DNA of 64,000 bases. It comes from a virus. Of the stretch, positions 1,751 through 61,988 are shown piece after piece. How positions within the stretch are numbered: the first letter of the stretch is position 1; each line of letters opens with the position of its first letter. Made by a program: the position numbers and the translations under genes. The DNA is taken from positions 1 through 64,000 of the IMG/VR virus record IMGVR_UViG_3300025137_005412; one strand, 5' to 3'. The notes below the pieces were generated by a model. That model did no database searches. It saw only the letters and a list, made by a program, of their open reading frames with translations, and had not been told where the DNA came from.

Positions 1751-2693
1751 AGCGAGTAAGAGGCTAAACGCCCACAATCCAATCACATCCGCCTTAGATG
1801 CAATAGTGTCTGCTGCAAATAATTCTAAAGGTGAATTTGTAGCATATAAACATGAAGGTACTAATACAGTAGGAGGTGATGTAGGATTTTGTTTTGGTTC
1901 ATATACACAGAGAAAACTTGAAGTTGAAAGAGCGGTATTAATTAGAAATATTGAAGCTGCAAAACAACCATGCTTTTTTCTAGATTCAGCAGCATTCTCA
2001 ACACACATTAGAAACTCACTTAATAGTAGTGAAACATTTATGTTTAGGCTTGGTCTTAATTCATGTACTGGTGAAGGTGTATTTTGGAATAGACCATTAC
2101 CATCTGAAAGATATGATGCTATGAAAAAGCAATTTAACTTTACAGAAAAGGATCCACAAAATAATGTCACAGGACCAATTGTATTTCTTGCACAAACAGA
2201 AACAGGTTGGCAGTTTGATGATTTAGAACCATACTATAAGTTTGCTAATAAGACACTTAAAGAGATAAGAGAACATACAGATAGAAAAATTATCTATAGA
2301 ACACATCCAAAATTAGATCCAAGATCACCATTAGAAAAATGTATTGAAGGTATTGAAAATCTTGAAGTACATAATTGTCCAGTATCAAGACGAACACTAT
2401 TTGAATCATTAGACGGTGCTTATGCCGTCGTAACTCACAGCTCATCAGGTGCACTAGAAGCGGTGCTTGAAGGATTACCTACATTTGCAATGAGTCCAAG
2501 AACATTTGGTTCTCCAATGTATCTTACAGACATAAGTAAAATAGGAAATGCATTCCATGAATTCGCTTGGAATGAAAGACAACAATGGCTATATAACCTT
2601 GCGTATACATCTTGGAGTGTAGAAGAACTGAAAACTATTGAGGTTCTAAGGTATTATACTAATATGCTCAAAGGAATAGAAAATGAAAAATAA
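1719..2693 (+). CDS. GT-B-like transferase-type protein, copy 3
   Basis: This is the longest of the three (324 aa). It starts inside the end of copy 2 (32 nt overlap) behind AAGGAA. Motifs: [16 protein letters not shown] (about 185-200) and [21 protein letters not shown] (about 233-253), the clearest version of the HP motif and SSGALEA donor-binding loop seen in capsule-type GT-B enzymes. It overlaps gmd by 11 nt, so it is translationally coupled to nucleotide-sugar synthesis. A glycosyltransferase role fits sequence and context; specificity is unknown. Confidence 0.55.
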
Positions 2694-3708
2694 GAAGGCA
2701 ATTATTACGGGTATTACTGGACAGGATGGTCCATATCTTGCTGATCTTTTATTAGAAAATGGTTATGAAGTTCATGCTATTAGAAGAAGAGGTGCAACAG
2801 ATAATACTACAAGAATTAAACACATATTAGACCATGAAAATTTTTGGCTACACTATGGTGATCTTACTGATTCATCAAGTTTAGTTAAGATTGTGAATAT
2901 GGTTCAACCAGATGAAATTTATAACTTAGGTGCAATGTCACATGTAAGAATATCTTTTGATATTCCTGAATACACTGGAGATACTGGTGGTTTAGGCGTG
3001 ACTAGAATGCTTGAAGCTATACGATCAGCTGGTTTAGAAAAGACATGTAAATTTTATCAAGCATCAACATCTGAGCTATACGGAAAAGTAGTTGAAACAC
3101 CACAAACTGAAACAACACCATTTTGGCCAAGATCGCCTTATGGTGTTGCTAAGTTATATGCTTATTGGATTGTAAGAAACTATAGAGAATCGTATGGTAT
3201 GTTTGCAGCTAATGGTATCTTATTCAATCATGAATCACCTAAACGAGGTGATGATTTTGTGACACAAAAGATTGTTAAAGGTGCAGTAGATATATCTTAT
3301 GGTGATCAAAAGAAACTTACGCTTGGTAATTTAGATGCACAAAGAGATTGGGGACATGCAAAAGATTATGTAAAAGGTATGTGGTTAATGATGCAACAAG
3401 ATAAACCTGAAGATTATGTATTAGCTACTGGCGAAATACATTCAGTTAGAGAATGTTGTGAGTATGTATTTAAAAAATTAGGAATGCCATTAAGATGGGT
3501 AGGCAAAGGTATCGAAGAAAAAGGATACTCAGGCGATAAACTTATGATTGATTGTAGTGAAGAATTCTATAGACCAGCTGAAGTACAATTACTACATGGT
3601 GATTCTACAAAGGCTCAAGAAGAATTAGGTTGGGAATTTGAACACGATTTTTATTCACTTATGAATGATATGATTGATTCAGCATTAATGAAACATTTAG
3701 TAAAATGA
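2683..3708 (+). CDS. gmd: GDP-mannose 4,6-dehydratase
   Basis: This converts GDP-D-mannose to GDP-4-keto-6-deoxy-D-mannose, the entry step to fucose, colitose, perosamine and rhamnose-type sugars. It is an extended SDR of 341 aa, close to the usual length. The N terminus has the NAD(P) motif ITGITGQDG (residues 8-16) followed by RRRG, which binds the NADP phosphate in this family. The catalytic region has STSELYG and then [10 protein letters not shown], giving the Tyr-x3-Lys pair (about residue 157). [10 protein letters not shown] is the family signature. It overlaps genes on both sides by 4-11 nt. The following gene consumes its product, which makes the assignment firm. Confidence 0.93.
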
Positions 3709-4892
3709 CAATAAAATATCCTTTAAGCTGCGATACTTGGAATAACCAAGAAATCGGAGCAATCAATAGAGTTATGAGAAATGGCCGTTATACTATGGGT
3801 CCAGAAGTTGTTAAGTTTGAAGAAGAGTTTGCTGGATATATGGGTGTAAACCATGCAAGAATGGTAAACAGTGGTTCATCAGCAAATTTACTTATGATTG
3901 CTTCAGCAATATTCTCACCTGAATATGATTTAAAAGCTGGTGATAAAGTTATTGTACCATCAGTATCTTGGTCAACTACATATTATCCATTACAACAGTA
4001 TGGTTTAGAACTTGTATTTGTAGATGTAGATCTATACACTCTTAATTTATGTCCTACAAAGACTGCTCAGGCACTCGAGGAAATTGAAGGTATCAAGGCA
4101 ATATTAACTGTAAACTTACTTGGTAATCCATCACAGATTGATGAATTAAAAGACCTAGCAGACAACTATAGTATACTTTTATTTGAAGATAATTGCGAAT
4201 CATTTGGTTCAAGTTTTGAAGGTAAAATGATGGGTACTTATGGTTCTATGGGTACACATTCATTCTTCTTTAGTCATCATCTTCAAACTATGGAAGGTGG
4301 TATGATACTTACTAATTCTGAAGAGACTGCTCAATACATTGACTCTCTTAGAGCTCATGGATGGTTAAGAACTTTACCTGATAAGAATTTTATTCATGAT
4401 AAAACAGGTGATCCATTTGAAGATAGCTTTAGATTTGTATTACCAGGTTATAGTGTAAGACCACTTGAAATGAGTGGTGCTATTGGTCAAGTACAACTTG
4501 CTAAATGGCCTGAAATGATGAAGCAAAGAGTAAAGAATGCTGAGTATTTTAAATGGAAGTTTGAAACTTTACCTATCATCATACAAAAAGAAATTGGTAT
4601 ATCATCGTGGTTTGGATTCTCATGTATAGTACCACATATAATTGGTAGAAAAAAATTCACAGATGCATTACAAGAAGGTGGTGTAGAGATCAGACCGATT
4701 GTAGCAGGTAATTTTTTAAGAAATCCAGTTATGAAACATATTGACCATCAGATAAGTGGTACTATGGAAAATGCAGATACTATTCATGATCAAGGATTCT
4801 TTTTAGGAAATGATTCAGAAGATATTAGAGAAAAAATAGATCATGCTTATAATATTATCAATGCAGTAATTCTTGACGGAGGTATGGAATGA
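3705..4892 (+). CDS. colD: PLP-dependent sugar 3-dehydratase of the ColD type (His in place of Lys)
   Basis: A fold-type I DegT/DnrJ/EryC1/StrS family protein of 395 aa. Aminotransferases of this family hold PLP through a Lys in SFxxxKxxxxGEGG. Here the motif reads [14 protein letters not shown] (about residues 185-198), with His-His where the Lys should be. That replacement is the hallmark of GDP-4-keto-6-deoxy-mannose 3-dehydratase (ColD) and of the RfbH/E1 3-dehydrases. Other family features are conserved: [10 protein letters not shown] near 55-65, VDVDLYTLN, and ED-N-x-ES for PLP-ring binding. Directly after gmd, its substrate would be the Gmd product and its product GDP-4-keto-3,6-dideoxymannose. 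A C3/C5 reductase-epimerase (ColC) is not obvious here. The alternative is another His-type 3-dehydrase on a different nucleotide sugar. Confidence 0.75.
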
Positions 4893-5647
4893 GTAAATAT
4901 TCAGTAGTAATGACATTAGGTCCACACAATTGGAAACAATATGGTTCTAAATCTGTAGAAGCTTTTGACAAATATTGGCCTAAAGATATTAATCTATATG
5001 TTTATTTTGAAGGTACACCACCAGACTTTTCTTCTGAAAGAGTACATTTCTTAGATTACAATGCAGAAATACCAGAACATAAAAAATTCATGGAAAGAAA
5101 TAAAGACAGGCATCCACACGTTAATGATGTGCATGTAAATAACATCACACACCAGGCAAGTAAATTTGCTTTTAAAGTATATGCACAATTACAAGAATTA
5201 GATTCACCAAAAACTAGATATGTAATTTATCTTGATGGTGATAACGTGACTATGAAAGATATAAAAGAGGATCTATTAGCAAAATTAGTAAATGATGAAG
5301 TATACTTATCTTTTGTAAACAGAATGCCTGCAAAATATACTGAAACAAGTATTATGATATGGGATACAGAGAACGAATACCACGCAGAATGGTGTAAGAC
5401 ATATCGATCTATGTATGATGATGATAATATATTTCAATATCCAGCTTGGCACGATTGTATTGCATTTGACGAGACAACATTTCCCATGATTAAAGCAAAG
5501 AAAATTAAAGCAATTGACTTAGGCTTTGGTGCACCATCTAAACATCCACTCGTTGTTGGACCATTAGGTGAATACTTTGACCATTTAAAAGGTCCATCAA
5601 GAAAACAATTAGGTTATTCTAAGGAAAGAAAGCATGCAGGATTTTAA
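4889..5647 (+). CDS. DxD glycosyltransferase-like protein (GT-A)
   Basis: A 252-aa protein starting 4 nt inside colD (ATGA overlap). YVIYLDGDNVTM near residue 112-123 is a hydrophobic strand ending in D-G-D, as expected of a GT-A metal/nucleotide-binding DxD. It is followed by LSFVNRMPAKYTETSIMIWD and a late WHDCIAFDE segment, compatible with an acceptor site. No family can be named with certainty. It sits with two further DxD proteins, so sequential sugar addition is the likely job. Confidence 0.55.
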   Translation: MSKYSVVMTLGPHNWKQYGSKSVEAFDKYWPKDINLYVYFEGTPPDFSSERVHFLDYNAEIPEHKKFMERNKDRHPHVNDVHVNNITHQASKFAFKVYAQLQELDSPKTRYVIYLDGDNVTMKDIKEDLLAKLVNDEVYLSFVNRMPAKYTETSIMIWDTENEYHAEWCKTYRSMYDDDNIFQYPAWHDCIAFDETTFPMIKAKKIKAIDLGFGAPSKHPLVVGPLGEYFDHLKGPSRKQLGYSKERKHAGF

Positions 5648-6302
5648 AGTCTTTATTGGTTATGATTCAAGAGAAGATATAGCTTATCAGGTTTGTAGGC
5701 ATTCTATACTTAAACATAATCCCGATGTAGAAGTAGTACCACTTAAATTACATGAATTAAGAGAACAAGGTTTTTATACTAGAGCTGATGATAAGAAAGG
5801 TTCTACAGAATTTACTATTTCAAGATTCTTATGTCCAGCACTCATGAATTATCATGGATATGCTTTATTTATGGATTGTGATATGATAGTTCAAGCAGAT
5901 GTAAAACATATATTTAAAGAAGCATGTGGTGAGTTTGATTTATCTTGTGTACAGCATGATTATAATCCAAAAAGCATGACAAAGATGGATGGTAAGATGC
6001 AACATGCATATCCAAGAAAAAACTGGTCAAGTGTTATGTTGTTTAATAATGAAAAATGTACAGATCTTACACCAGAATTAGTAAATACAGAAACACCACT
6101 TTATCTACATAGAATGTTATGGGCAGAAAAAGTTGGTAAATTAAATCATAAATGGAATCATCTAATTGGTTATTATGAAAAACCAGAAGATGCTTTGATT
6201 GTACATTATACAGATGGTGGTCCATGGTTTGAGAACTATAGAAACTGTGAATATGCCGATGTATGGAAACAACATGTAAAAGAATGGTTAGAACTTGATT
6301 AA
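5634..6302 (+). CDS. GT8-like glycosyltransferase
   Basis: 222 aa, overlapping the previous gene by 14 nt. The N-terminal VFIGYDSREDIAYQVCRHSI resembles family-8-like transferases (GYDxRE). ALFMDCDMIVQADV (about 80-93) supplies the D-C-D metal-binding motif. The C-terminal half has KWNHLIGYYE and LIVHYTDGGPW; the latter corresponds to the late His-x-Gly/Asp element that binds the diphosphate in GT8 enzymes. It is probably cytosolic. Donor and acceptor are unknown. Confidence 0.7.
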   Translation: MQDFKVFIGYDSREDIAYQVCRHSILKHNPDVEVVPLKLHELREQGFYTRADDKKGSTEFTISRFLCPALMNYHGYALFMDCDMIVQADVKHIFKEACGEFDLSCVQHDYNPKSMTKMDGKMQHAYPRKNWSSVMLFNNEKCTDLTPELVNTETPLYLHRMLWAEKVGKLNHKWNHLIGYYEKPEDALIVHYTDGGPWFENYRNCEYADVWKQHVKEWLELD

Positions 6303-6996
6303 TGTAGTTTGCGTAAATTGGGGTACTAAGTATCCTAAATCATATACAGAACGATTGTACAATATGGTCAAGCGTAATACAACACGTGACTTTAATTTCT
6401 ATGTGTTAACAGATCAACACATTTATAAAGAACCAATAAAGACAATTGAACTAAAATCTGGTATGACCGGTTGGTGGAATAAACTTCAGATGTTTGATAG
6501 AGAAGTAATGCCAGAAGGTGAGTATCTATACTTTGATTTAGATGTAGTAATAGTAGATAATATTGATTGCTTCTTTGATTCACCAAAGTTTGGTATACTA
6601 AGAGATTTTATTAGACCTGATGATGGTTTACTTCCTGGTAAAGAGTATAATTCATCAATATTAAGGTTCAATAATTTTGAATATTCCTCAATCTATGAGT
6701 ATTATCTATCTAATAAGCAGGTATTTCATGGTATGCAAAAACAAATTAACTTCTTTGGTGATCAAAATGTTATCAGTAGTTATTTTAATGCTTATCCCGA
6801 TTACGTTAAGCCATTCCCAGATGAATGGTCATGGTCTTATAAAAAAGGAGTTGTACGAGGTGCCACTGCAGGAGATCGAAGTGAAATGTTTGGAAGAAAA
6901 ATTCCTGATGGCGGGAAGATCTGTGTATTCCACGGAGAACCTAATCCTGAACAGGTGCTGGACAAACATGATTGGATAAAGGAGAACTATAAATGA
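6295..6996 (+). CDS. DxD glycosyltransferase-like protein
   Basis: 233 aa starting with TTG at 6295 (8 nt overlap); no ATG lies nearby in frame that keeps the first strand INVVCVNWGTKY. It has KLQMFDREVMPEGEYLYFDLDVVIVD, giving D-L-D near residue 80, then KEYNSSILRFNN and a C-terminal KICVFHGEPNP. This order is typical of small GT-A transferases found in T4-like marine phages and bacterial capsule loci. It closes the run of three DxD transferases. Confidence 0.6.
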   Translation: MINVVCVNWGTKYPKSYTERLYNMVKRNTTRDFNFYVLTDQHIYKEPIKTIELKSGMTGWWNKLQMFDREVMPEGEYLYFDLDVVIVDNIDCFFDSPKFGILRDFIRPDDGLLPGKEYNSSILRFNNFEYSSIYEYYLSNKQVFHGMQKQINFFGDQNVISSYFNAYPDYVKPFPDEWSWSYKKGVVRGATAGDRSEMFGRKIPDGGKICVFHGEPNPEQVLDKHDWIKENYK

Positions 6997-7199
6997 ACCA
7001 ATTAAATGAAGAGATGGTGCAAGCCTTAGCACTTAAATTTGAAGGTCTTAAACAAGCACACATTGTAAATGTTAAAACGCTTTTACATAATGGTGTAGGT
7101 GTAGCTGAGCATCCTGATAGTGTATTAACTGTTGAAGGTGAAATTGCAAAGGTTGCAGAATATGATGATAAGCTTGAAGCACTTAAAAAATATTTCTAA
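6993..7199 (+). CDS. small conserved-looking phage protein
   Basis: 68 aa, ATGA-coupled to the preceding transferase and overlapping the next start by 1 nt, so it is almost certainly translated. It is predicted helical and charged, with repeated Leu and Glu/Lys and no Cys or membrane segment. No function is recognised. Its position suggests a small accessory or linker protein for the cassette. Confidence 0.5.
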   Translation: MNQLNEEMVQALALKFEGLKQAHIVNVKTLLHNGVGVAEHPDSVLTVEGEIAKVAEYDDKLEALKKYF

Positions 7200-8053
7200 T
7201 GGCATTTGAAAATAAAAAGATTTGTATAACGGGTCACACTAAAGGTGTTGGCAAGGCTATTAAAGATAGGCTTGAAGCTAATCACTATACAGTTGTTGGT
7301 GGTTCAAGATCTAATGGTGTAAATGTAGGTAAAGCTAAATCAGTAATTAATTGGGTACTTTCTGAAAACCCTGATATCTTTATTAATAATGTATATTGGC
7401 CTGATTCACAAGCAAAGATTTGTTATCAACTTTATAATAAATGGCAAAGTGAAAAGAAACATATTATCAATATGAGTTCTACTAGCGGTATGGCTCATAC
7501 TAATTTTAGTGAAATGGCAAATAGTGATATCACTAGATCATTTTATAACGAGTTCTGGGGACCATACGTATCAGAAAAAAATAGATTAGAATTTATTAGT
7601 AAACAATTAGCTCATAAATTTAGTAGAAGATTTCCATGTAAGGTCACAGCTTTAATGCCTGGATTTGTAGATACTAATGCAGTTGCTTTATTCAAACCAG
7701 TATTTACACCTGAAAGTTTCTTAACTGCTGAAGAAGTTGCTCAACAAGTTCATTGGCTTATTGAACAACCTGATCATATTCAAGTTCAATCATTAGCTTT
7801 TGGTACATACTTTGAAATATCACAAGCAGCAGCAAGACAAAGATTAAAAGACTTTGATAATATGGTAGAGAATCAACAAAACAATGCTTATGGCCTTGAT
7901 GAAGAAGCAGTTGAAGCGGGTAAAGAAGGTAGAGGAGCATTAAAGAAACTTATTAATGAAAGAATCTATAAGACTACAGCAGAAGCAAGTAGAAAAGTGA
8001 AAGATTCAGTTGAACAATTAAGTCAGGAGTCATTCGATGGCAAAGACGAATAG
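7199..8053 (+). CDS. short-chain dehydrogenase/reductase
   Basis: 284 aa. The Rossmann motif TGHTKGVGKAI (10-20) matches TGxxxGxG, with NNVYWPDSQ replacing NNAG, INMSSTSGMA carrying the catalytic Ser, and YVSEK giving Tyr-x3-Lys (about 130). All catalytic elements are therefore present. The C-terminal 60 residues extend beyond the usual SDR core and are charged. It overlaps the following beta-ketoacyl synthase by 17 nt. That pairing suggests a beta-ketoacyl (FabG-like) reductase, but a nucleotide-sugar ketoreductase acting after Gmd/ColD is equally compatible. Confidence 0.75.
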   Translation: MAFENKKICITGHTKGVGKAIKDRLEANHYTVVGGSRSNGVNVGKAKSVINWVLSENPDIFINNVYWPDSQAKICYQLYNKWQSEKKHIINMSSTSGMAHTNFSEMANSDITRSFYNEFWGPYVSEKNRLEFISKQLAHKFSRRFPCKVTALMPGFVDTNAVALFKPVFTPESFLTAEEVAQQVHWLIEQPDHIQVQSLAFGTYFEISQAAARQRLKDFDNMVENQQNNAYGLDEEAVEAGKEGRGALKKLINERIYKTTAEASRKVKDSVEQLSQESFDGKDE

Positions 8054-9281
8054 ATTAGCCGTAACTGGTGTTGCTATTGCAGATTGTATGGGCGATGATG
8101 GTATTGAAAATAATTTCAATAGATATATGGCAAATGATACATCTCATCCGATGGATATTGAGAATATCAAACAATCAATTACTGAAAAAGGTTTACTAAG
8201 AAAAGCACTTACTAAATATTATGATAGATCATCAATGGCTATTATTGATCTTGTTGATAAAGCTATTAATATGGCAGACTTAGATGTCAAGTCAGATACT
8301 GAAGCACCTATCATGACTGGTACAACAAGAGGTCCTATTACTTCTACACTTGAATACTTTAAACAATATTGGTTTGAGAAATGGAAAGAAGAATTTGAAA
8401 CAGATCCAACAAAGAAACAAGAAATCTATGCAGGTCTAATTAAAAAGTTTCAAAGAATGAATCCATATTTTCTTTTAAATGTAAATGTAGATTTTATTCA
8501 AACACAATTAAGTGCTCATTACGGTATCAATGGTCCAGTATTTCAATCAGCAGCAACATGTAGTAGTGGTATTTACCTATTAGATATTGCTAAGGCTTAT
8601 TTAGATAGAGGTAATAAGTATGCTATTCTTACCGGTTATGAACAACTTGATGCTCATGAATTAACAAGATGGTTCTTTATGTCATTAGGTGCAGCAGCTC
8701 CTAGCGGTGTTTGTAGACCATTTGATAATAATAGAGACGGTACAGTATTAAAGAATTCGTATGCAGCTATGATTGTAGAACGAGAAGATGAAGCTAAGAA
8801 AAGAGGTGCAACAATCTTAGCTTATGTTGAAGATGTAAGAAATAGAAATGATGCCGGTCATGCATTAGCACCAGCTGAAGATGGTAAAGCATATCGCATT
8901 GCATTGGAATCCTTAATGAAAGACAAAGACATTACGTATGATGATATTGATTACGTAAATGCGCACGCCACAGGTACTCCAAAAGGTGATGAGATAGAAC
9001 TTAATACACTTAAAGATTATCTTAAAAAAGATACAGTAGTTTCTGCATTGAAAGGTCATATTGGCCACGCTATGGGTGCGTGTTCTTTAGCAGAAATGAC
9101 ATATACTATTATGATGATGAATAAAGGTATTGCTTTACATACGGCACATTTAACCGATCCATGTGATGATTACTTTAATCTTATTACAGAACCAAAAGAA
9201 ATGGAAATTAAGTATGCACTTAAGAATAGTTTTGGTTTTGGTGGTAGATCTTCCGTGGCATTACTATCGAAAGCAGATTAA
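8037..9281 (+). CDS. beta-ketoacyl-ACP synthase (FabF/KAS II-like)
   Basis: A thiolase-fold condensing enzyme of 414 aa, the normal FabF length. The complete Cys-His-His triad is visible: SAATCSSGIYLLD (Cys near 175), VNAHATGTPKGD (His near 308) and LKGHIGHAMGAC (His near 343). The glycine-rich end NSFGFGGRSSVALL is also present. The enzyme extends an acyl chain by Claisen condensation using malonyl-ACP. A complete condensing enzyme is unusual in a phage. The neighbouring SDR could reduce its product, and the surrounding glycosyltransferases suggest an acyl group for a lipid or glycan. I see no ACP or malonyl transferase in the window. Confidence 0.88.
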   Translation: MAKTNRLAVTGVAIADCMGDDGIENNFNRYMANDTSHPMDIENIKQSITEKGLLRKALTKYYDRSSMAIIDLVDKAINMADLDVKSDTEAPIMTGTTRGPITSTLEYFKQYWFEKWKEEFETDPTKKQEIYAGLIKKFQRMNPYFLLNVNVDFIQTQLSAHYGINGPVFQSAATCSSGIYLLDIAKAYLDRGNKYAILTGYEQLDAHELTRWFFMSLGAAAPSGVCRPFDNNRDGTVLKNSYAAMIVEREDEAKKRGATILAYVEDVRNRNDAGHALAPAEDGKAYRIALESLMKDKDITYDDIDYVNAHATGTPKGDEIELNTLKDYLKKDTVVSALKGHIGHAMGACSLAEMTYTIMMMNKGIALHTAHLTDPCDDYFNLITEPKEMEIKYALKNSFGFGGRSSVALLSKAD

Positions 9282-36893: not shown

Positions 36894-37430
36894 ATGGCAA
36901 CAGCGGTTATTACATGGGGCAGAATGAACCCACCAACCGCTGGTCATGAAAAACTGGTAAACAAATTAAGAAAGGCTTCTCGCTTTCACGGTGGGAAGCC
37001 TTTCGTGTTTCTAACGAAGACATTCAAAAAACCAAAAGACCCACTTCCATATAGAGATAAAGTCAAGCTTGCAAAGAAAGCATTTGGTAATATTGTAAAA
37101 GATCATAAAGGTAAAACACTTATTGATCTTATGAAAGAACTAGAAAAGAAGTATGATGACCTATATGTAGTTGTAGGCTCTGATAGAGTAAGTGAATTCG
37201 AAACACTCTTAAACAAATATAATGGAAAAGATTATACATTTTCTAGTATAACTATATTATCTGCAGGAGAAAGAGACCCTGATGCAGAAGGTGTTTCTGG
37301 TATATCTGCAAGTAAGATGAGAAAATTTGCAGCTGATGATGATTATGATTCATTTGCTAAAGGTTTACCATCATTAATAAGAGGATCAACTGCTAAAAAA
37401 GCATTTGATTTAGTAAGAAAAAATTTATAA
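36894..37430 (+). CDS. NMN adenylyltransferase/cytidylyltransferase-like protein
   Basis: 178 aa. TWGRMNPPTAGHEKLVNKL (7-25) has the HxGH-type nucleotidyltransferase signature (here T-A-G-H). VVVGSDRVSEF and the C-terminal GVSGISASKMRKFAADDD (ISxSxxR) complete the fold. The family includes NadM/NadR and CTP-dependent cytidylyltransferases. Marine T4-like phages carry such a gene under the cytidylyltransferase label. It could restore NAD or activate a sugar/lipid headgroup; substrate is not decided by sequence. A 9-bp perfect hairpin lies in its coding region (36971-37003). Confidence 0.78.
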   Translation: MATAVITWGRMNPPTAGHEKLVNKLRKASRFHGGKPFVFLTKTFKKPKDPLPYRDKVKLAKKAFGNIVKDHKGKTLIDLMKELEKKYDDLYVVVGSDRVSEFETLLNKYNGKDYTFSSITILSAGERDPDAEGVSGISASKMRKFAADDDYDSFAKGLPSLIRGSTAKKAFDLVRKNL

Positions 37431-38033: not shown

Positions 38034-38546
38034 ATGGCATTATTAGAATGCGTGAAATTTGGTCACGATATAGGCCAATTAAAGCCTGCAATAAATGAAG
38101 TAGGTTTTGATATACATTATAACAAAATCTACATGAAGTTAGTGGAAGATTTTAATAAAGGTATTGGCGATTTTGCTTTTAACAAAGCCGGAGCACACCT
38201 TCACGGGTTGTACTTCGAAAATTTAAGGGAACGAAGAGAAAACAATATCCCTATTGGAAAAGCGGAACATATCATTACACAAAGGTATGGGAATTTTGAT
38301 AATTTTAAGAAGCAAGTTCAAGAACAAGCTTCGAGATTACAAGGTTCTGGTTGGGTATTTATGAACATGCAAGGTTATGTGAATATTATACCTAATTATA
38401 GAATTGTAGATAATGTTGGAATGATTATAAACTGTTGGGAACATGCTTACGCATATACTTTCGGTCATGATCGAGCAGCATTTGTTGATTCTATATTTGA
38501 TATTATTGATTGGGATAAAGTTAACTCACGTTTGAATGGTGAGTAA
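38034..38546 (+). CDS. iron/manganese superoxide dismutase-like protein with altered metal ligand
   Basis: 170 aa. GFDIHYNKIYMKLVEDFN gives the first His, NKAGAHLHGLYFENLR the second, GSGWVFMNMQG the G-S-G-W segment, and NCWEHAYAYTFGHDRAAFVD the last. In Fe/Mn SOD this reads D-x-W-E-H-x-Y; here the Asp ligand is Asn. The end IIDWDKVNSRL matches N-W-x2-V-x2-R/N. The protein is slightly shorter than bacterial SOD. It would detoxify superoxide if active; the Asn may reduce or alter activity. Confidence 0.78.
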   Translation: MALLECVKFGHDIGQLKPAINEVGFDIHYNKIYMKLVEDFNKGIGDFAFNKAGAHLHGLYFENLRERRENNIPIGKAEHIITQRYGNFDNFKKQVQEQASRLQGSGWVFMNMQGYVNIIPNYRIVDNVGMIINCWEHAYAYTFGHDRAAFVDSIFDIIDWDKVNSRLNGE

Positions 38547-39605
38547 ATGTGTGTTGTTGCTGCAAAGCACTTCAAAGGACATGGTTGGATTTTAGTAAAA
38601 AATCGTGACCGTAATTATCCTACTGAGGTAAAATTAGTTCAATCAAAACGTTCAGGCATTGAACGCTTATTCCTACGTGATACAACTACGGGTTATAGTG
38701 AAGGTCTAAATGAAACAGGCTTATCAATAGTATCTGCTTCAGTGATGGTTAAAAAAGATGAGAAAGAAGGTGGTGGTAGAGCATCTGATTCTCAAAACTG
38801 GACATCACCTGATGGACAAAGAATAAGAAGAGCACTATATCAAAAGACTGTAAAAGGTGCAGTCAAATCATTATTAGATTCACAGATTCCTGGAAACACT
38901 ATTATTTCTGATGGTAAAGAATGCTATCTTATTGAAGCTGCATTTACTAATTACGAAAAACCTGATCAAAAATATCACAGCATAGTTAAAAAGATTCAAC
39001 CAAAAGATATTTGTGTAAGAACAAATCATGGTATAGCATTACCATGGACAGGTTATGATATAAAAGACCCTGAACAAAAACCTGATAGGTTATCTTCAGA
39101 AAGCAGATTGAAAATAGCAACTGCAGAAATTAAAAAAGCTAAGGATCCACAAGCATTATTGAACGCCTTAGGTGTAGCACCTGAAAAAGACCCACAAATG
39201 AATCCTATAAGAATCAATAAAGGTAAAGGTGTTATGAGAACTACAGGTCAAATCATGTTAAATCCATTAGAAAGAGTATTTACATATAGACCTACAATGT
39301 CAGAAGTAGAATTAAGCAACTACAATAAGATCAATGCAGAAACATCTAAGACTTTCTTTGAGATCATATCAAACAGAGAACTAATTAGCTTTGGTTCTTT
39401 TAGTGAAGGTACAGAATCATGGGAAGCAGGATATAAAAGACGTGTAGTAAAGACTACTAAAGCAGAGCATAAAGACAAAGGTCTTATGTGGAGAATTAAA
39501 GGTAAAGACAGACCAGAAATTAGTATCAAACTATATAAAGACAAACCATCTTTTGCAGAATTCAAAAAACAAATGAAAAGAGTGGCTGGACATGAATTTG
39601 GCTAG
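38547..39605 (+). CDS. Ntn-hydrolase-like protein with N-terminal Cys
   Basis: 352 aa. The protein begins Met-Cys, and removal of Met would expose Cys2 as nucleophile. It is followed by HGWILVKNRDRNY, the N-R-D segment seen in the acyl-CoA:6-APA acyltransferase/choloylglycine hydrolase group of Ntn hydrolases. GLNETGLSIVSASV (about 57-70) and ICVRTNHGIALPWTG (about 150) follow the family order. Likely chemistry is amide-bond hydrolysis or transfer. The C-terminal 120 residues are extra. It follows the SOD-like gene without a gap. Confidence 0.6.
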   Translation: MCVVAAKHFKGHGWILVKNRDRNYPTEVKLVQSKRSGIERLFLRDTTTGYSEGLNETGLSIVSASVMVKKDEKEGGGRASDSQNWTSPDGQRIRRALYQKTVKGAVKSLLDSQIPGNTIISDGKECYLIEAAFTNYEKPDQKYHSIVKKIQPKDICVRTNHGIALPWTGYDIKDPEQKPDRLSSESRLKIATAEIKKAKDPQALLNALGVAPEKDPQMNPIRINKGKGVMRTTGQIMLNPLERVFTYRPTMSEVELSNYNKINAETSKTFFEIISNRELISFGSFSEGTESWEAGYKRRVVKTTKAEHKDKGLMWRIKGKDRPEISIKLYKDKPSFAEFKKQMKRVAGHEFG

Positions 39606-40812
39606 TTTCTTATCTGAAGCTGCTGACAGCTCACAGAATCTACATCTTACACATGTAGATGAAGACCTATTTGAAAGAGGAGATGAAGGTGCTAAGGCAT
39701 CTATTGAATCTTGTAGAAATGTATTGGATGGCATTGGTACGGGTGAGACAGCACTTACAATCAAATGGGATGGTGCACCTGCTATATTTGCTGGTGTAGA
39801 TCCTGCTGATGGTAAATTCTTTGTATCAACAAAATCAGCATTCAACAAAACACCAATACTATATAAGAGTGCATCTGATAAGAAAAAATTTAAAACAGGT
39901 GATAAGCTTGCAATTGCTCATAAAGAGTTTCAAAAGATTGGTATACCATCAGGAGTTGTATTACAAGGTGACCTTATGTTTACTAAAGGTGATCAGAAAT
40001 ATGAGACTATTGATGATAAAAGATACATAACAGCTCATCCGAATACTATTGTTTATGCTTGGGATGCTGAAAGTGATGTAGGTAAACAAATAAGAAATGC
40101 AAACATAGGTGTTGTTTGGCATACTACATATTCAGGTAAAGACTTACAAAGTATGAAAGCAAGATTCGGAGTAAACGTAAATAAATTAAAAAGCTCACGT
40201 TCTATATGGATGGATGATGCATATTTTAAAGGTGCTAATGTTGCCTTTACTGATGCTGAGAAAATTAAAGTAGAAAAAATCTTATCATCAGCAGAAAGTA
40301 AAATTGGCAAGTTTGATAAGCTTAAAGAAATAATGGCAATGATACCATCAGCTGCTGTTGGTGCTGGAATAAAAACATTTATAAACTCTAATATTAGAAA
40401 AGGTCAATTGCCTACAGCAAGAAAAAATCCAGTAAAAGATTATATTGAATATGTAGATACATATTACGAAGATAAGATTATCAGTAAGTTAAAGACAGAT
40501 AAAGCTATAGACTCTAAGAGAGCTGCAAAGAGACAATTAAGATCTGATCTTGGTAAGAATGCTGCTATTTTAAAAGCTGCATTTGAATATGTAGATCTCA
40601 TTACTCAAGCTAAAGTACAAATAATTAAAAAACTAGTATCGTTGGATAAACAAAAGCAATTTGTTAAAACAAGTAGTGGTTTTAAAGTGACTAATCCAGA
40701 AGGTTATGTAGCTATAAATTCTAAAAAAGGTGAAGCTGTTAAATTTGTAGACAGATTAGAATTTAGCTATAATAATTTTTCTGACAGTGTAATCAAAGGA
40801 TGGCAAAAATGA
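39592..40812 (+). CDS. ligase-like nucleotidyltransferase (DUF6267-type)
   Basis: 406 aa. Motifs of covalent nucleotidyltransferases occur in order: LTIKWDGAPAIFAG (motif I, KxDG with Lys near 62), GVVLQGDLMF (motif III region, about 125), NPEGYVAI (motif IV, E-G-x-V, about 378) and AVKFVDR (motif V, K-F). The spacing is long because of a helical insertion of about 150 residues. It may adenylate an RNA or other end. Marine T4-like phages carry DUF6267 proteins of this kind, whose activity is not known to me. It overlaps the previous gene by 14 nt. Confidence 0.55.
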   Translation: MNLASFLSEAADSSQNLHLTHVDEDLFERGDEGAKASIESCRNVLDGIGTGETALTIKWDGAPAIFAGVDPADGKFFVSTKSAFNKTPILYKSASDKKKFKTGDKLAIAHKEFQKIGIPSGVVLQGDLMFTKGDQKYETIDDKRYITAHPNTIVYAWDAESDVGKQIRNANIGVVWHTTYSGKDLQSMKARFGVNVNKLKSSRSIWMDDAYFKGANVAFTDAEKIKVEKILSSAESKIGKFDKLKEIMAMIPSAAVGAGIKTFINSNIRKGQLPTARKNPVKDYIEYVDTYYEDKIISKLKTDKAIDSKRAAKRQLRSDLGKNAAILKAAFEYVDLITQAKVQIIKKLVSLDKQKQFVKTSSGFKVTNPEGYVAINSKKGEAVKFVDRLEFSYNNFSDSVIKGWQK

Positions 40813-51352: not shown

Positions 51353-51796
51353 ATGCAACTTATAATAGAAACACAATATATGGAAAACTACAATGTAGAA
51401 AATCCTGGCCAAGGTCAAGATAGATGGAAATATAAAGGTGGTTCCACTTATAAGGTGCAGGATGTTGACATTAACATGGACTTTAAGAAATACATTAAGA
51501 CACATCTAGCTCCGAAGATAGAGTATGAGTCAGATATGTCTCAAGAATATATTCTTGACTGGTCCATCGTGTCAGATGACTATCTGTCAGACTTTGAAAA
51601 GTCTCAACTTGAATATGAAGGTTTTAAGGGCTATCAAGAACCTAAGATCTATATTGAAGATGATAAGATGACTAAGATCAAAGAGTTTGAGGGTCATCGT
51701 GGTAGAAATAGACACGTGTGGGAATGGTTTGCTGATGGTTCTGAATGGGTATACAATAAAGCATTATCATTTGAACTAACAAGAAGGGTAGCATAA
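51353..51796 (+). CDS. hypothetical protein of the early region
   Basis: 147 aa. It has no signal or membrane segment, is acidic, and contains IIETQYMENYNVENPGQGQD at the start and WEWFADGSEWVYNK near the end. Such a Q-Y-M-E-N-Y start is seen in other phage proteins of unknown function. It overlaps the next gene by 1 nt. Confidence 0.5.
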   Translation: MQLIIETQYMENYNVENPGQGQDRWKYKGGSTYKVQDVDINMDFKKYIKTHLAPKIEYESDMSQEYILDWSIVSDDYLSDFEKSQLEYEGFKGYQEPKIYIEDDKMTKIKEFEGHRGRNRHVWEWFADGSEWVYNKALSFELTRRVA

Positions 51797-52245
51797 TGGG
51801 CGATTACGTAATATTCGATGTAGATGGTACATTGATGGACATTACTCACAGACGTAAGTTTGTACAGAGTAGTCCAAAAGACTGGGATTCATTCAATGAT
51901 CCTAAGAATGTAGAGAAAGATACACCTATTGAAGAGGTGTTTGAGCTTGCTAGACTATTATCTAAGCGAAACTATATAGTCATATCAAGTGGTAGAAAGA
52001 AGAAGCTAAGGGATCTGACTATGAAGCAGATAAGAGCCAATGGACTTGACCCTGAACTAGCACTCTTTCGAAGTGATACAGACTTTAGGCCAGATCATGA
52101 GCTTAAACGTGATCATCTGCAGAAGATGATACTTCACTTTAATGACGAGTTCCCACGTATGGCCTTTGATGATAGAGATTCAGTGGTAGATATGTGGCGA
52201 GAGAATGGTATCAAGACCTTTCAGCCTGAAAGAGGTAATTTTTAA
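51796..52245 (+). CDS. polynucleotide kinase 3'-phosphatase-like HAD protein
   Basis: 149 aa. VIFDVDGTLMDITHRRKFV contains the HAD motif I D-x-D-G-T (7-11). VISSGRKKKLRDLTMKQI is motif II-like, LFRSDTDFRPDHELKRD gives the conserved R-x3-D-x-R-x-D loop, and FDDRDSVVDMWRENGIKTFQ is motif IV. This set matches the phosphatase half of T4 Pnkp. The kinase half is missing. It could act in RNA/DNA end repair. Confidence 0.82.
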   Translation: MGDYVIFDVDGTLMDITHRRKFVQSSPKDWDSFNDPKNVEKDTPIEEVFELARLLSKRNYIVISSGRKKKLRDLTMKQIRANGLDPELALFRSDTDFRPDHELKRDHLQKMILHFNDEFPRMAFDDRDSVVDMWRENGIKTFQPERGNF

Positions 52246-60767: not shown

Positions 60768-61227
60768 GGTGCTCGCTGTGTATGTTTATTAATCTATTAA
60801 TATTATACTTTTTAATTCTAATTTTTTTCTGTACGAGATGATTCATCCATGATTTTTTATTTGTAAACTTATCTCCATAGAATATCTTTAAGAGTGTATC
60901 ATCACTGATACCTTTTCTATCGAATAATCTATCAAGATCAAATGTAGTTGGTAGTACTTCATCAGCAGTATCTCTCTTATAGAGTTCATATGATTGCGGA
61001 TGATAATCTTTAATGTATGATATAAAGTTTGCACTATAACCACAATTAAAGCAATGGCATACAAGACCTTGTTGTTTTGCATCTACCCAGAATCTTGCTT
61101 TACGAGTATTAGTAGCACTATCACCACATACTTGACATGACCAGTTCCATGAGTATTGAGTTTTCTTCTTATAGTTTCTTACTTCGTAAGTAAGACTGTC
61201 AGCAATTGAAATTAAGTTATGAAGCAT
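60739..61227 (-). CDS. primase-type zinc-ribbon protein
   Basis: 162 aa. YSWNWSCQVCGDSATNTRKARF and GLVCHCFNCGYSANFISYI form a Cys4 zinc ribbon (C-x2-C ... C-x2-C) like that at the N terminus of phage primases, with a following helix YHPQSYELYKRD. There is no TOPRIM or catalytic core after it. It may be a detached primase module, paralogous to the ribbon in the protein at 23718, or a regulator with the same fold. Overlaps the neighbours by 16-29 nt. Confidence 0.6.
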   Translation of the reverse strand: MLHNLISIADSLTYEVRNYKKKTQYSWNWSCQVCGDSATNTRKARFWVDAKQQGLVCHCFNCGYSANFISYIKDYHPQSYELYKRDTADEVLPTTFDLDRLFDRKGISDDTLLKIFYGDKFTNKKSWMNHLVQKKIRIKKYNINRLINIHSEHHGKRISKNT

Positions 61228-61988
61228 TCTTGAATTTTATCTATTTGTCTAAGAGTTTCTTCGAACATGTTTGGTGTTAACATGTTTGGTCCATCAGAAG
61301 GTGCTACAGTAGGATTATCATGAACTTCCATAAAGAATCCATCTACACCAACGGCAGCTGCAGCTCTACATAATGGTTGAACGAATTGTCTTTTACCACC
61401 ACTGACTCCATCACCAGCACCAGGTTCTTGTACTGAATGTGTAGCATCGAATATAACTTTCATATTTGGATAATCTTTTTGAAGTACCTGTCTCATATAA
61501 CTTAAACCTCTCATGTCTACTACTAGATTATTATACCCGAAAGTTGTACCTCTTTCTGTAATCCATATAGGAGCATCAGGATCAGGTTTAGATAGTATAC
61601 CTTTAACTTCTTTATATGATAGGAATTGACCTTTCTTTATATTAACAGGTTTCCATGTAGAACATGCTTCTACAATAAGATCTGTTTGTCTGCAAAGAAA
61701 AGCTGGGATTTGGAATACATCTATAATGTCTTGAAGATATTCCACTTGATAGCACTCATGAACATCCGTCAAAAGTTTCATGTCTGGATTTTCATTCTTT
61801 AGAAACTCAAAGTCCTCAACGAATTGTTTTAATCCAACACCTCGTTTACCTTTAACTGAACTTCGGTTTGCCTTATCAAAAGAAGCTTTATAATAAAATT
61901 CACCACTTACAATCTCTTTGATAGCGTCAAACATTTTCTGTGAATGTTCAATACTTTCATGTTGACATGGTCCCGCAATTAAAATCAT
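61212..61988 (-). CDS. kdsA: 3-deoxy-D-manno-octulosonate-8-phosphate synthase
   Basis: 258 aa. LIAGPCQHESIEHSQ at the start, FYYKASFDKANRSS, KPVNIKKGQFLS, WITERGTTFGYNNLVVDMRG, VIFDATHSVQEPG and GFFMEVHDNP are the KdsA signatures. It condenses PEP with arabinose-5-phosphate to KDO-8-P for LPS core. The C in GPC, the H in DATHS, the E in FMEVH and the D in SDGPN match the ligands of the metal-dependent class, unlike the Asn-type E. coli enzyme. A phage copy may boost KDO supply or alter LPS of the host. Confidence 0.93.
   Translation of the reverse strand: MILIAGPCQHESIEHSQKMFDAIKEIVSGEFYYKASFDKANRSSVKGKRGVGLKQFVEDFEFLKNENPDMKLLTDVHECYQVEYLQDIIDVFQIPAFLCRQTDLIVEACSTWKPVNIKKGQFLSYKEVKGILSKPDPDAPIWITERGTTFGYNNLVVDMRGLSYMRQVLQKDYPNMKVIFDATHSVQEPGAGDGVSGGKRQFVQPLCRAAAAVGVDGFFMEVHDNPTVAPSDGPNMLTPNMFEETLRQIDKIQECFIT

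Follow-up and report, generated by a model that had tools for sequence, protein, structure and literature searches.

The question raised by this locus is whether a phage protein annotated as being of unknown function is a nucleotidyltransferase of the ligase type and, if so, on what it might act. The protein is encoded in a 64,000-nucleotide stretch of viral DNA (the window; positions 1 to 64,000 of the 152,041-base IMG/VR record IMGVR_UViG_3300025137_005412, here G000), and its gene is the single DUF6267 gene of that record. The open reading frame of 406 residues matches PF19782 (DUF6267) over residues 16-397 (E 1.9e-81; 274.7 bits against a gathering cut-off of 27) and was assigned to PHROG 455, annotated 'unknown function'; a literature search for the name DUF6267, covering 5.39 million papers, found no paper mentioning the family. 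The original prediction, made from the letters of the window, had read KWDGAP, GDLMF, EGYV and VKFVD as motifs I, III, IV and V of covalent nucleotidyltransferases, with a long helical insertion. Based on the analysis below, DUF6267 appears to be a divergent, unrecognised family of the lysyl-nucleotide (ligase/capping) nucleotidyltransferase superfamily, its fold and chemistry being of a known kind. The features of the gene are as follows.

39592..40812, + strand: DUF6267 protein with predicted ligase fold, 406 residues, ATG start (Pfam match, AlphaFold2 model, VIA-align)
39592..39618, + strand: putative capsid-targeting/prohead-protease peptide MNLASFLSE, predicted cut before A10 (T4 gp21 L-x-E rule; disordered in the model)
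39763..39774, + strand: motif I, K58-W-D60-G61, predicted nucleotidylated lysine (KWDGAP, residues 58-63; sequence, alignments)
39964..39972, + strand: motif III-like, Q125-G126-D127 (GDLMF, residues 126-130; sequence, alignments, model)
40039..40065, + strand: motif IIIa-like strand PNTIVYAWD, residues 150-158 (sequence, model)
40252..40644, + strand: helical insertion, residues 221-351 (model), shorter in P-SSM4-type relatives
40699..40710, + strand: motif IV, E370-G-Y-V, residues 370-373 (sequence, alignments)
40741..40755, + strand: motif V, K384-F-V386-D-R, with K-x-V replacing K-x-K (VKFVD, residues 383-387; sequence, alignments)

We take K58-x-D60-G, Q125-x-D127, E370-G and K384 to represent motifs I, III, IV and V, and the PNTIVYAWD strand presumably corresponds to motif IIIa. 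Because K58, Q125, D127, H177, N265, K341, E370 and K384 were each found in 182/182 sequences of a family alignment, the motif pattern is more than chance. This set was gathered by a pattern already holding DG-P and VDR..FS..NF, so that D60, G61, P63, V386-R388, S392, N395 and F396 are not independent of the selection, whereas K58, Q125, D127, H177, E370 and K384 are. The pattern failed at 3 of 187 viral/phage loci and at 14 of 34 loci on genome contigs. When the latter 14 were aligned separately, K-W-D-G was present in all 12 sequences covering motif I; the aspartate of motif III was likewise kept in 12/12 covering sequences (one has H for Q125), as were the glutamate of motif IV and the lysine of motif V (12/12). 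In S-SCSM1 gp115, motif I reads K-M-D-G. The spacing of E370 and K384 (14 residues) equals that of E312 and K326, which are named in the PDB entry titles of a Naegleria ligase and which we assume to lie in its motifs IV and V. The four predicted motifs were thus borne out, and the motif I lysine did not prove variable among homologues. Two departures are fixed throughout the family, namely D for E in motif III and K-x-V for the K-x-K typical of motif V in the superfamily. The second position of motif V is V in 85/85 rows of an 85-row alignment with the first K kept (V386 lies inside the selection pattern of the 182-sequence set), whereas six T4 Rnl1 rows keep K-x-K (6/6).

The 85-row DUF6267 alignment, from which five further rows had been dropped, was used as input for AlphaFold2. 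The resulting model of the 406-residue protein has a mean pLDDT (predicted local distance difference test score) of 90 and a pTM (predicted template-modelling score) of 0.87, with residues 1-17 disordered. When VIA-align was run on Foldseek candidates, all of rows 1-45 among the best 50 listed were ligases, of RNA or of DNA. The best match among those listed was the Naegleria RNA ligase (Z 8.6, barely above the noise band of the tool; 187 residues aligned, root-mean-square deviation 3.6 Å), followed by T. brucei REL1 (7.9), T4 Rnl1 (7.6), and Trl1 and T4 Rnl2 (both 7.5), every single score being modest by the tool's own warning; DNA ligases matched more weakly than RNA ligases (Z 5.5-6.6). The fold was accepted because nearly all listed rows belong to one superfamily, the one predicted from the motifs. 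DUF6267 thus very probably has a ligase-type nucleotidyltransferase fold, as judged from the model, and the comparison with T4 Rnl1, T4 Rnl2 and DNA ligase that the original prediction had proposed gave a ligase and not some other fold. The long insertion is also seen, since seven helices (221-235, 241-248, 253-258, 260-269, 280-299, 303-322 and 324-351) lie between the GDLMF and EGYV strands. Past K384 there are 22 more residues, so that the chain lacks a C-terminal OB domain of the kind typical of DNA ligases. A structure search of BFVD returned DUF6267 relatives as best matches, the top one being a 591-residue S-PM2 protein that also has a cytidyltransferase-like domain.

The relation to ligases was visible by VIA-align only. 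Searches of PDB sequences with phmmer and profiles reached no known fold, and a Pfam scan of 85 members listed 25 families, none of them a ligase family. Scattered weak matches in that scan (SWI2_SNF2 in 24/85, best 8.6e-4) were judged to be noise.

The family is common among marine phages of the T4 type, and T4-like phages are abundant in the ocean. With the window protein as tblastn query, 451 of 50,697 phage records matched, 135 of them spanning at least 80% of the query; most are Synechococcus or Prochlorococcus T4-like phages, and others include HTVC008M, Melnitz and Stenotrophomonas DLP_6. A search of plasmids gave 0 matches. The genome collection gave 34, which are probably phage contigs because nearly all lie on metagenome-assembled or binned contigs; a single isolate assembly is among them (Nonlabens, 188 kb contig, L239). 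On the same ground, DUF6267 was rejected as a cellular gene.

A ligase census was then made in 16 DUF6267 records (the window's own, seven other IMG/VR records, S-PM2, DLP_6, HTVC008M, Melnitz, P-SSM4, P-SSM2, S-SZBM1 and S-SCSM1; three of the seven are below 120 kb and so probably partial) and in seven T4-like controls (T4, KVP40, Aeh1, RB49, Acj9, S-TIM5 and phiM12). The DUF6267 profile matched 16/16 and 0/7, respectively. PF01068 (ATP-dependent DNA ligase) was found in a single DUF6267 record, that of DLP_6, with 0 matches in the window's record, and the RNA ligase families PF09414 and PF09511 in 0/16, the window's record included. The controls have PF01068 in 6/7, PF09511 in 6/7 and PF09414 above its cut-off in 5/7; S-TIM5 carries neither DUF6267 nor any ligase match. 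The two sets also differ in lineage, and the census is no proof of replacement. The NAD+-dependent DNA ligase adenylation domain (PF01653) was found in 0/23 records, and NAD+-dependence through a domain of the LigA type was therefore rejected; NAD+ itself may still be the donor.

The N-terminus of the window protein, MNLASFLSE|AAD, fits a targeting peptide with an L/I-x-E cleavage motif. For the packaging of T4 IPIII its first 10 residues are enough, and gp21 cleaves after L/I-x-E (PMC9026906). Two patterns, loose and strict, were written after inspecting the sequences, and with this caveat they matched 72/83 and 56/83 distinct long-form N-termini, compared to 2 and 0 of 42 distinct N-termini of the S-PM2/P-SSM4 type and 20 and 3 of 186 other open reading frames of the window phage; in a later set of genome-contig DUF6267 proteins, the counts were 15/20 and 13/20. 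HTVC008M and Melnitz are among the phages whose DUF6267 bears the peptide. The window phage also encodes a gp21-type prohead protease (PF03420, 2.3e-39). These data suggest that in most long forms residues 1-10 resemble a T4 capsid-targeting/protease peptide and thereby point to packaging in the virion, which on this sequence signature we consider reasonably probable for the peptide-bearing forms.

Virion data from relatives were compared with this signature. NMNAT-like proteins with the same kind of peptide (S-SZBM1_140, MRFRQFIIEA; the S-SCSM1 NMNAT, MKSFLQFLKEA) were detected in virions (PMC9146016, PMC9602691). The DUF6267 proteins of these two phages start MAKNTHLEH and MQNKHQEH, respectively, with no targeting peptide, and are not among the virion proteins listed in table 1 and section 3.4 of PMC9146016 or marked in PMC9602691. 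Because peptide-bearing NMNATs are in virions and peptide-less DUF6267 proteins are not listed, the virion data so far fit the packaging signature. Virions of S-SM1 contained the T4-GC190 cytidyltransferase (PMC3037559), and those of S-CREM2 a cytidylyltransferase (PMC10665884); proteins of such type might be carry-over from the lysate, according to warnings in PMC10665884 and PMC9602691.

Two further sets of proteins attracted attention by their ends. Proteins encoded upstream of DUF6267 at L048:1002-2114 and in its relatives (L026, L032, L059 and L093) show by eye a second L-x-E-like site before an amphipathic-looking helical tail at the C-terminus, as if cut twice by the prohead protease. 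Outside the window, a 338-residue protein (G000:138594-139610; L194:3594-4610) has the N-terminus NFNEFLDEAS and belongs to PHROG 13937 (1.7e-40), as does the gene that immediately precedes DUF6267 in DLP_6.

Taken together, these results lead us to favour, by a modest preponderance, a model in which DUF6267 is a ligase-fold enzyme that seals or activates nucleic-acid ends and is co-packaged in peptide-bearing phages. AMP from ATP (or NAD+) would be transferred onto K58 and passed on to a nucleic-acid 5′-phosphate, sealing or activating the end, by what is the one enzyme with a predicted ligase fold that was detected in the majority of these T4-like phages. In phages with the FLxEA peptide, the window phage included, DUF6267 is probably co-packaged in the prohead core. 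The gp21-type protease would then trim it, and at infection it would enter the cell together with the DNA and could act there on phage DNA that is broken or tRNA that has been cleaved, ahead of any new protein synthesis. Enzymatic nucleotidyl transfer is likely, and a nucleic acid is somewhat favoured as the substrate.

Several points weigh against this model, in addition to the modest structural scores and the manner in which the N-terminal patterns were written. Foldseek alone found no match for the model in the PDB at E <= 0.001, and hhalign of DUF6267 with a six-sequence T4 Rnl1 alignment gave no profile similarity (probability 1.1%). The altered motifs V and III may mean that catalysis differs or is lost. 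DLP_6 carries both DUF6267 and an ATP-dependent DNA ligase. The S-SZBM1 and S-SCSM1 proteins are missing from the virion lists named above, and the literature searched yielded neither virion mass spectrometry of a peptide-bearing DUF6267 nor an assay of any DUF6267 protein.

The genes around DUF6267 provide further context. Three features of the window are relevant here.

36894..37430, + strand: NMNAT/cytidylyltransferase-like gene, three genes upstream of DUF6267 (assigned to the PHROGs of the domain that elsewhere is fused to DUF6267 or adjoins it)
38547..39605, + strand: Ntn-hydrolase-like gene (C45 type, starts MC), whose last 14 bases overlap the beginning of DUF6267 (match to NCBIfam NF040521, E 5.5e-07, below the curated cut-off)
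51796..52245, + strand: HAD_PNKP phosphatase (7.9e-24), not conserved with DUF6267

PHROG 455 spans both DUF6267 and a cytidyltransferase, and in S-PM2 record LN828717 (L254) the two share one open reading frame of 591 residues, with K-W-D-G at 50 and T-F-G-R-F-N-P-P-T-T-G-H at 414. The older S-PM2 record AJ630128 (L101) splits this region, a sequencing or strain difference. The gene directly upstream was surveyed at 162 loci (22 more have no upstream open reading frame) and varies: it is Ntn-hydrolase-like in the window's clade (15 loci), belongs elsewhere to families with a D..S-x-K signature, is an HAD phosphatase at 4/162 loci, or is of other kinds, and the upstream clusters also take in unrelated genes (helicase, superoxide dismutase-like). 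The position held by the Ntn-hydrolase-like gene in the window is occupied in other phages by restriction-endonuclease-like genes. One such family (A3) models weakly as MspI/HinP1I-like (pLDDT 65), with HinP1I (Z 7.8) and MspI (Z 7.6) on top and unrelated helical rows close behind; the best Foldseek match of this model was MspI (E 0.18). The D..S/E-x-K pattern, which is loose, occurs in 120 of 143 upstream open reading frames of at least 200 residues against 57.2 expected by shuffling. The restriction-endonuclease-like identity, resting on such models and patterns, is a lead only.

Whereas the nucleotidyltransferase reading of the original prediction stood, its suggestion that the HAD phosphatase at 51796 might be the partner for end healing did not. 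The HAD_PNKP domain is real, but it lies 11 kb away and occurs in only the window's own of the 16 DUF6267 records, and as a conserved partner it was rejected. The HAD family found directly upstream of DUF6267 is a different one, in which at least one copy has a capsid-targeting-like N-terminus and one member matches PF10307 (1.6e-06, above cut-off), a Pfam family described as 'HAD domain family 1 in Swiss Army Knife RNA repair proteins'. Its relative in the window phage (G000:94134-94739; L191:13134-13739; N-terminus MKSFAQILQEEAG) is one of the three strict background matches and belongs to PHROG 415, 'polynucleotide kinase' (1.3e-11). A P-loop kinase lies close downstream of DUF6267 in HTVC008M and G002; the window phage has no kinase above the AAA_33 cut-off. 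At L060:2630-4399, also upstream of DUF6267, a P-loop kinase (AAA_33/Zeta-toxin-like) is joined to a polymerase-beta-type nucleotidyltransferase domain.

These neighbours raise the thought of a virion-delivered kit that breaks and seals nucleic acid in marine T4-like phages without T4-type ligases, in which a variable restriction-enzyme-like nuclease or end-healing enzyme, a constant DUF6267 and an NMNAT-like cofactor enzyme would carry T4-type peptides for entry into the head and be injected along with the genome. We hold this nuclease-plus-ligase cargo to be doubtful, a lead short of a finding.

Two observations elsewhere in the window stand apart. Positions 38034-38546 encode an Fe/Mn superoxide dismutase-like protein in a phage (PF02777, 1.9e-17), and at 2683-9281 and 61212-61988 sugar-nucleotide, glycosyltransferase, ketosynthase-like and 3-deoxy-octulosonate-synthase-like genes were noted by eye, which suggests surface-glycan or lipid-related functions.

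Among the alternatives, the one that survives best is that the ligase fold serves 5′-RNA capping, or that it moves AMP or GMP onto a protein or a small molecule, such as some host target encountered once it is injected. Capping enzymes have the same nucleotidyltransferase fold, motif V K-x-V and motif III Q-x-D differ from all six Rnl1 rows, and an NMNAT-like nucleotide enzyme is a frequent partner; host proteins are also modified by effectors that T4 packages, Alt among them (PMC5512222). We nevertheless regard this as rather unlikely. Some neighbours (restriction-enzyme-like, HAD_SAK_1, P-loop kinase) are of a DNA or RNA type, and no capping-enzyme or guanylyltransferase chain stands among the best 50 VIA-align rows listed, although a listing of this length leaves room for that family.

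It is less probable still that DUF6267 replaces T4 gp30 in the cytoplasm and so supplies the DNA ligase that replication in these phages is missing. A 2010 review noted that homologues of the g30 DNA ligase were not found in cyanomyoviruses, adding that distant homologues might exist and that the host ligase may serve (PMC2984593). The near-exclusive distribution (PF01068 missing in 15/16 DUF6267 records, present in 6/7 controls) would agree with such a replacement, as would the position of the cyanophage DUF6267 gene next to replication genes. However, the capsid-targeting-like peptide of most long forms would not suit a replication enzyme, the chain ends without an OB domain, DLP_6 has both proteins and S-TIM5 neither, and T4 itself can use the host ligase instead (PMC2984593). 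Finally, a catalytically dead ligase fold, binding ends or nucleotides in the role of a structural protein of the head core or of an antidote to the neighbouring nuclease-like gene, would accommodate K-x-V and the constancy of DUF6267 beside variable neighbours, but is very improbable with the motif I lysine and acidic residues kept in every covering sequence, which is unusual for a dead enzyme.

The model of a packaged end-sealing enzyme has several implications. The 2010 review left open how cyanomyoviruses cope without gp30 ligase (PMC2984593), and DUF6267 offers, for the ligase-type activity that they lack, a candidate that is concrete and can be tested. Should packaging be confirmed, a ligase-type enzyme would be delivered by the virion, the NMNAT-like proteins found in cyanophage virions, which have been discussed until now as NAD+ enzymes, would gain a partner, and the N-terminal peptide would make it easy to list the proteins that a large group of uncultured phages injects.

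Compared to known systems, DUF6267 stands closest to T4 Rnl1 and Naegleria Rnl (PF09511, PF09414), with which it shares the predicted nucleotidyltransferase fold (Z 7.6 and 8.6), the order of motifs I, III, IIIa, IV and V, K-x-D-G and the spacing from E of motif IV to K of motif V, while differing in its lack of profile similarity, its motifs V (K-x-V) and III (Q-x-D), an insertion of ~130 helical residues and the N-terminal targeting-like peptide. T4 gp30 and other ATP-dependent DNA ligases (PF01068) have the same catalytic fold and match more weakly (Z 5.5-6.6), and the T4-like phages tested have one or the other, except DLP_6 and S-TIM5. The resemblance to T4 Pnkp-Rnl1 tRNA repair lies in the HAD phosphatase or P-loop kinase that adjoins the ligase-fold gene in some loci, although these parts vary among phages and the window phage lacks such a kinase. 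With the T4 internal proteins (IPI-III, Alt), DUF6267 shares a short N-terminal peptide ending L/I-x-E before a small residue and a gp21-type protease in the genome, but it has a ligase fold, and its packaging is one that we infer. What appears to be new is an unrecognised family that combines altered motifs III and V, a helical insertion and a head-targeting-like peptide, and that occurs in phages without other ligases.
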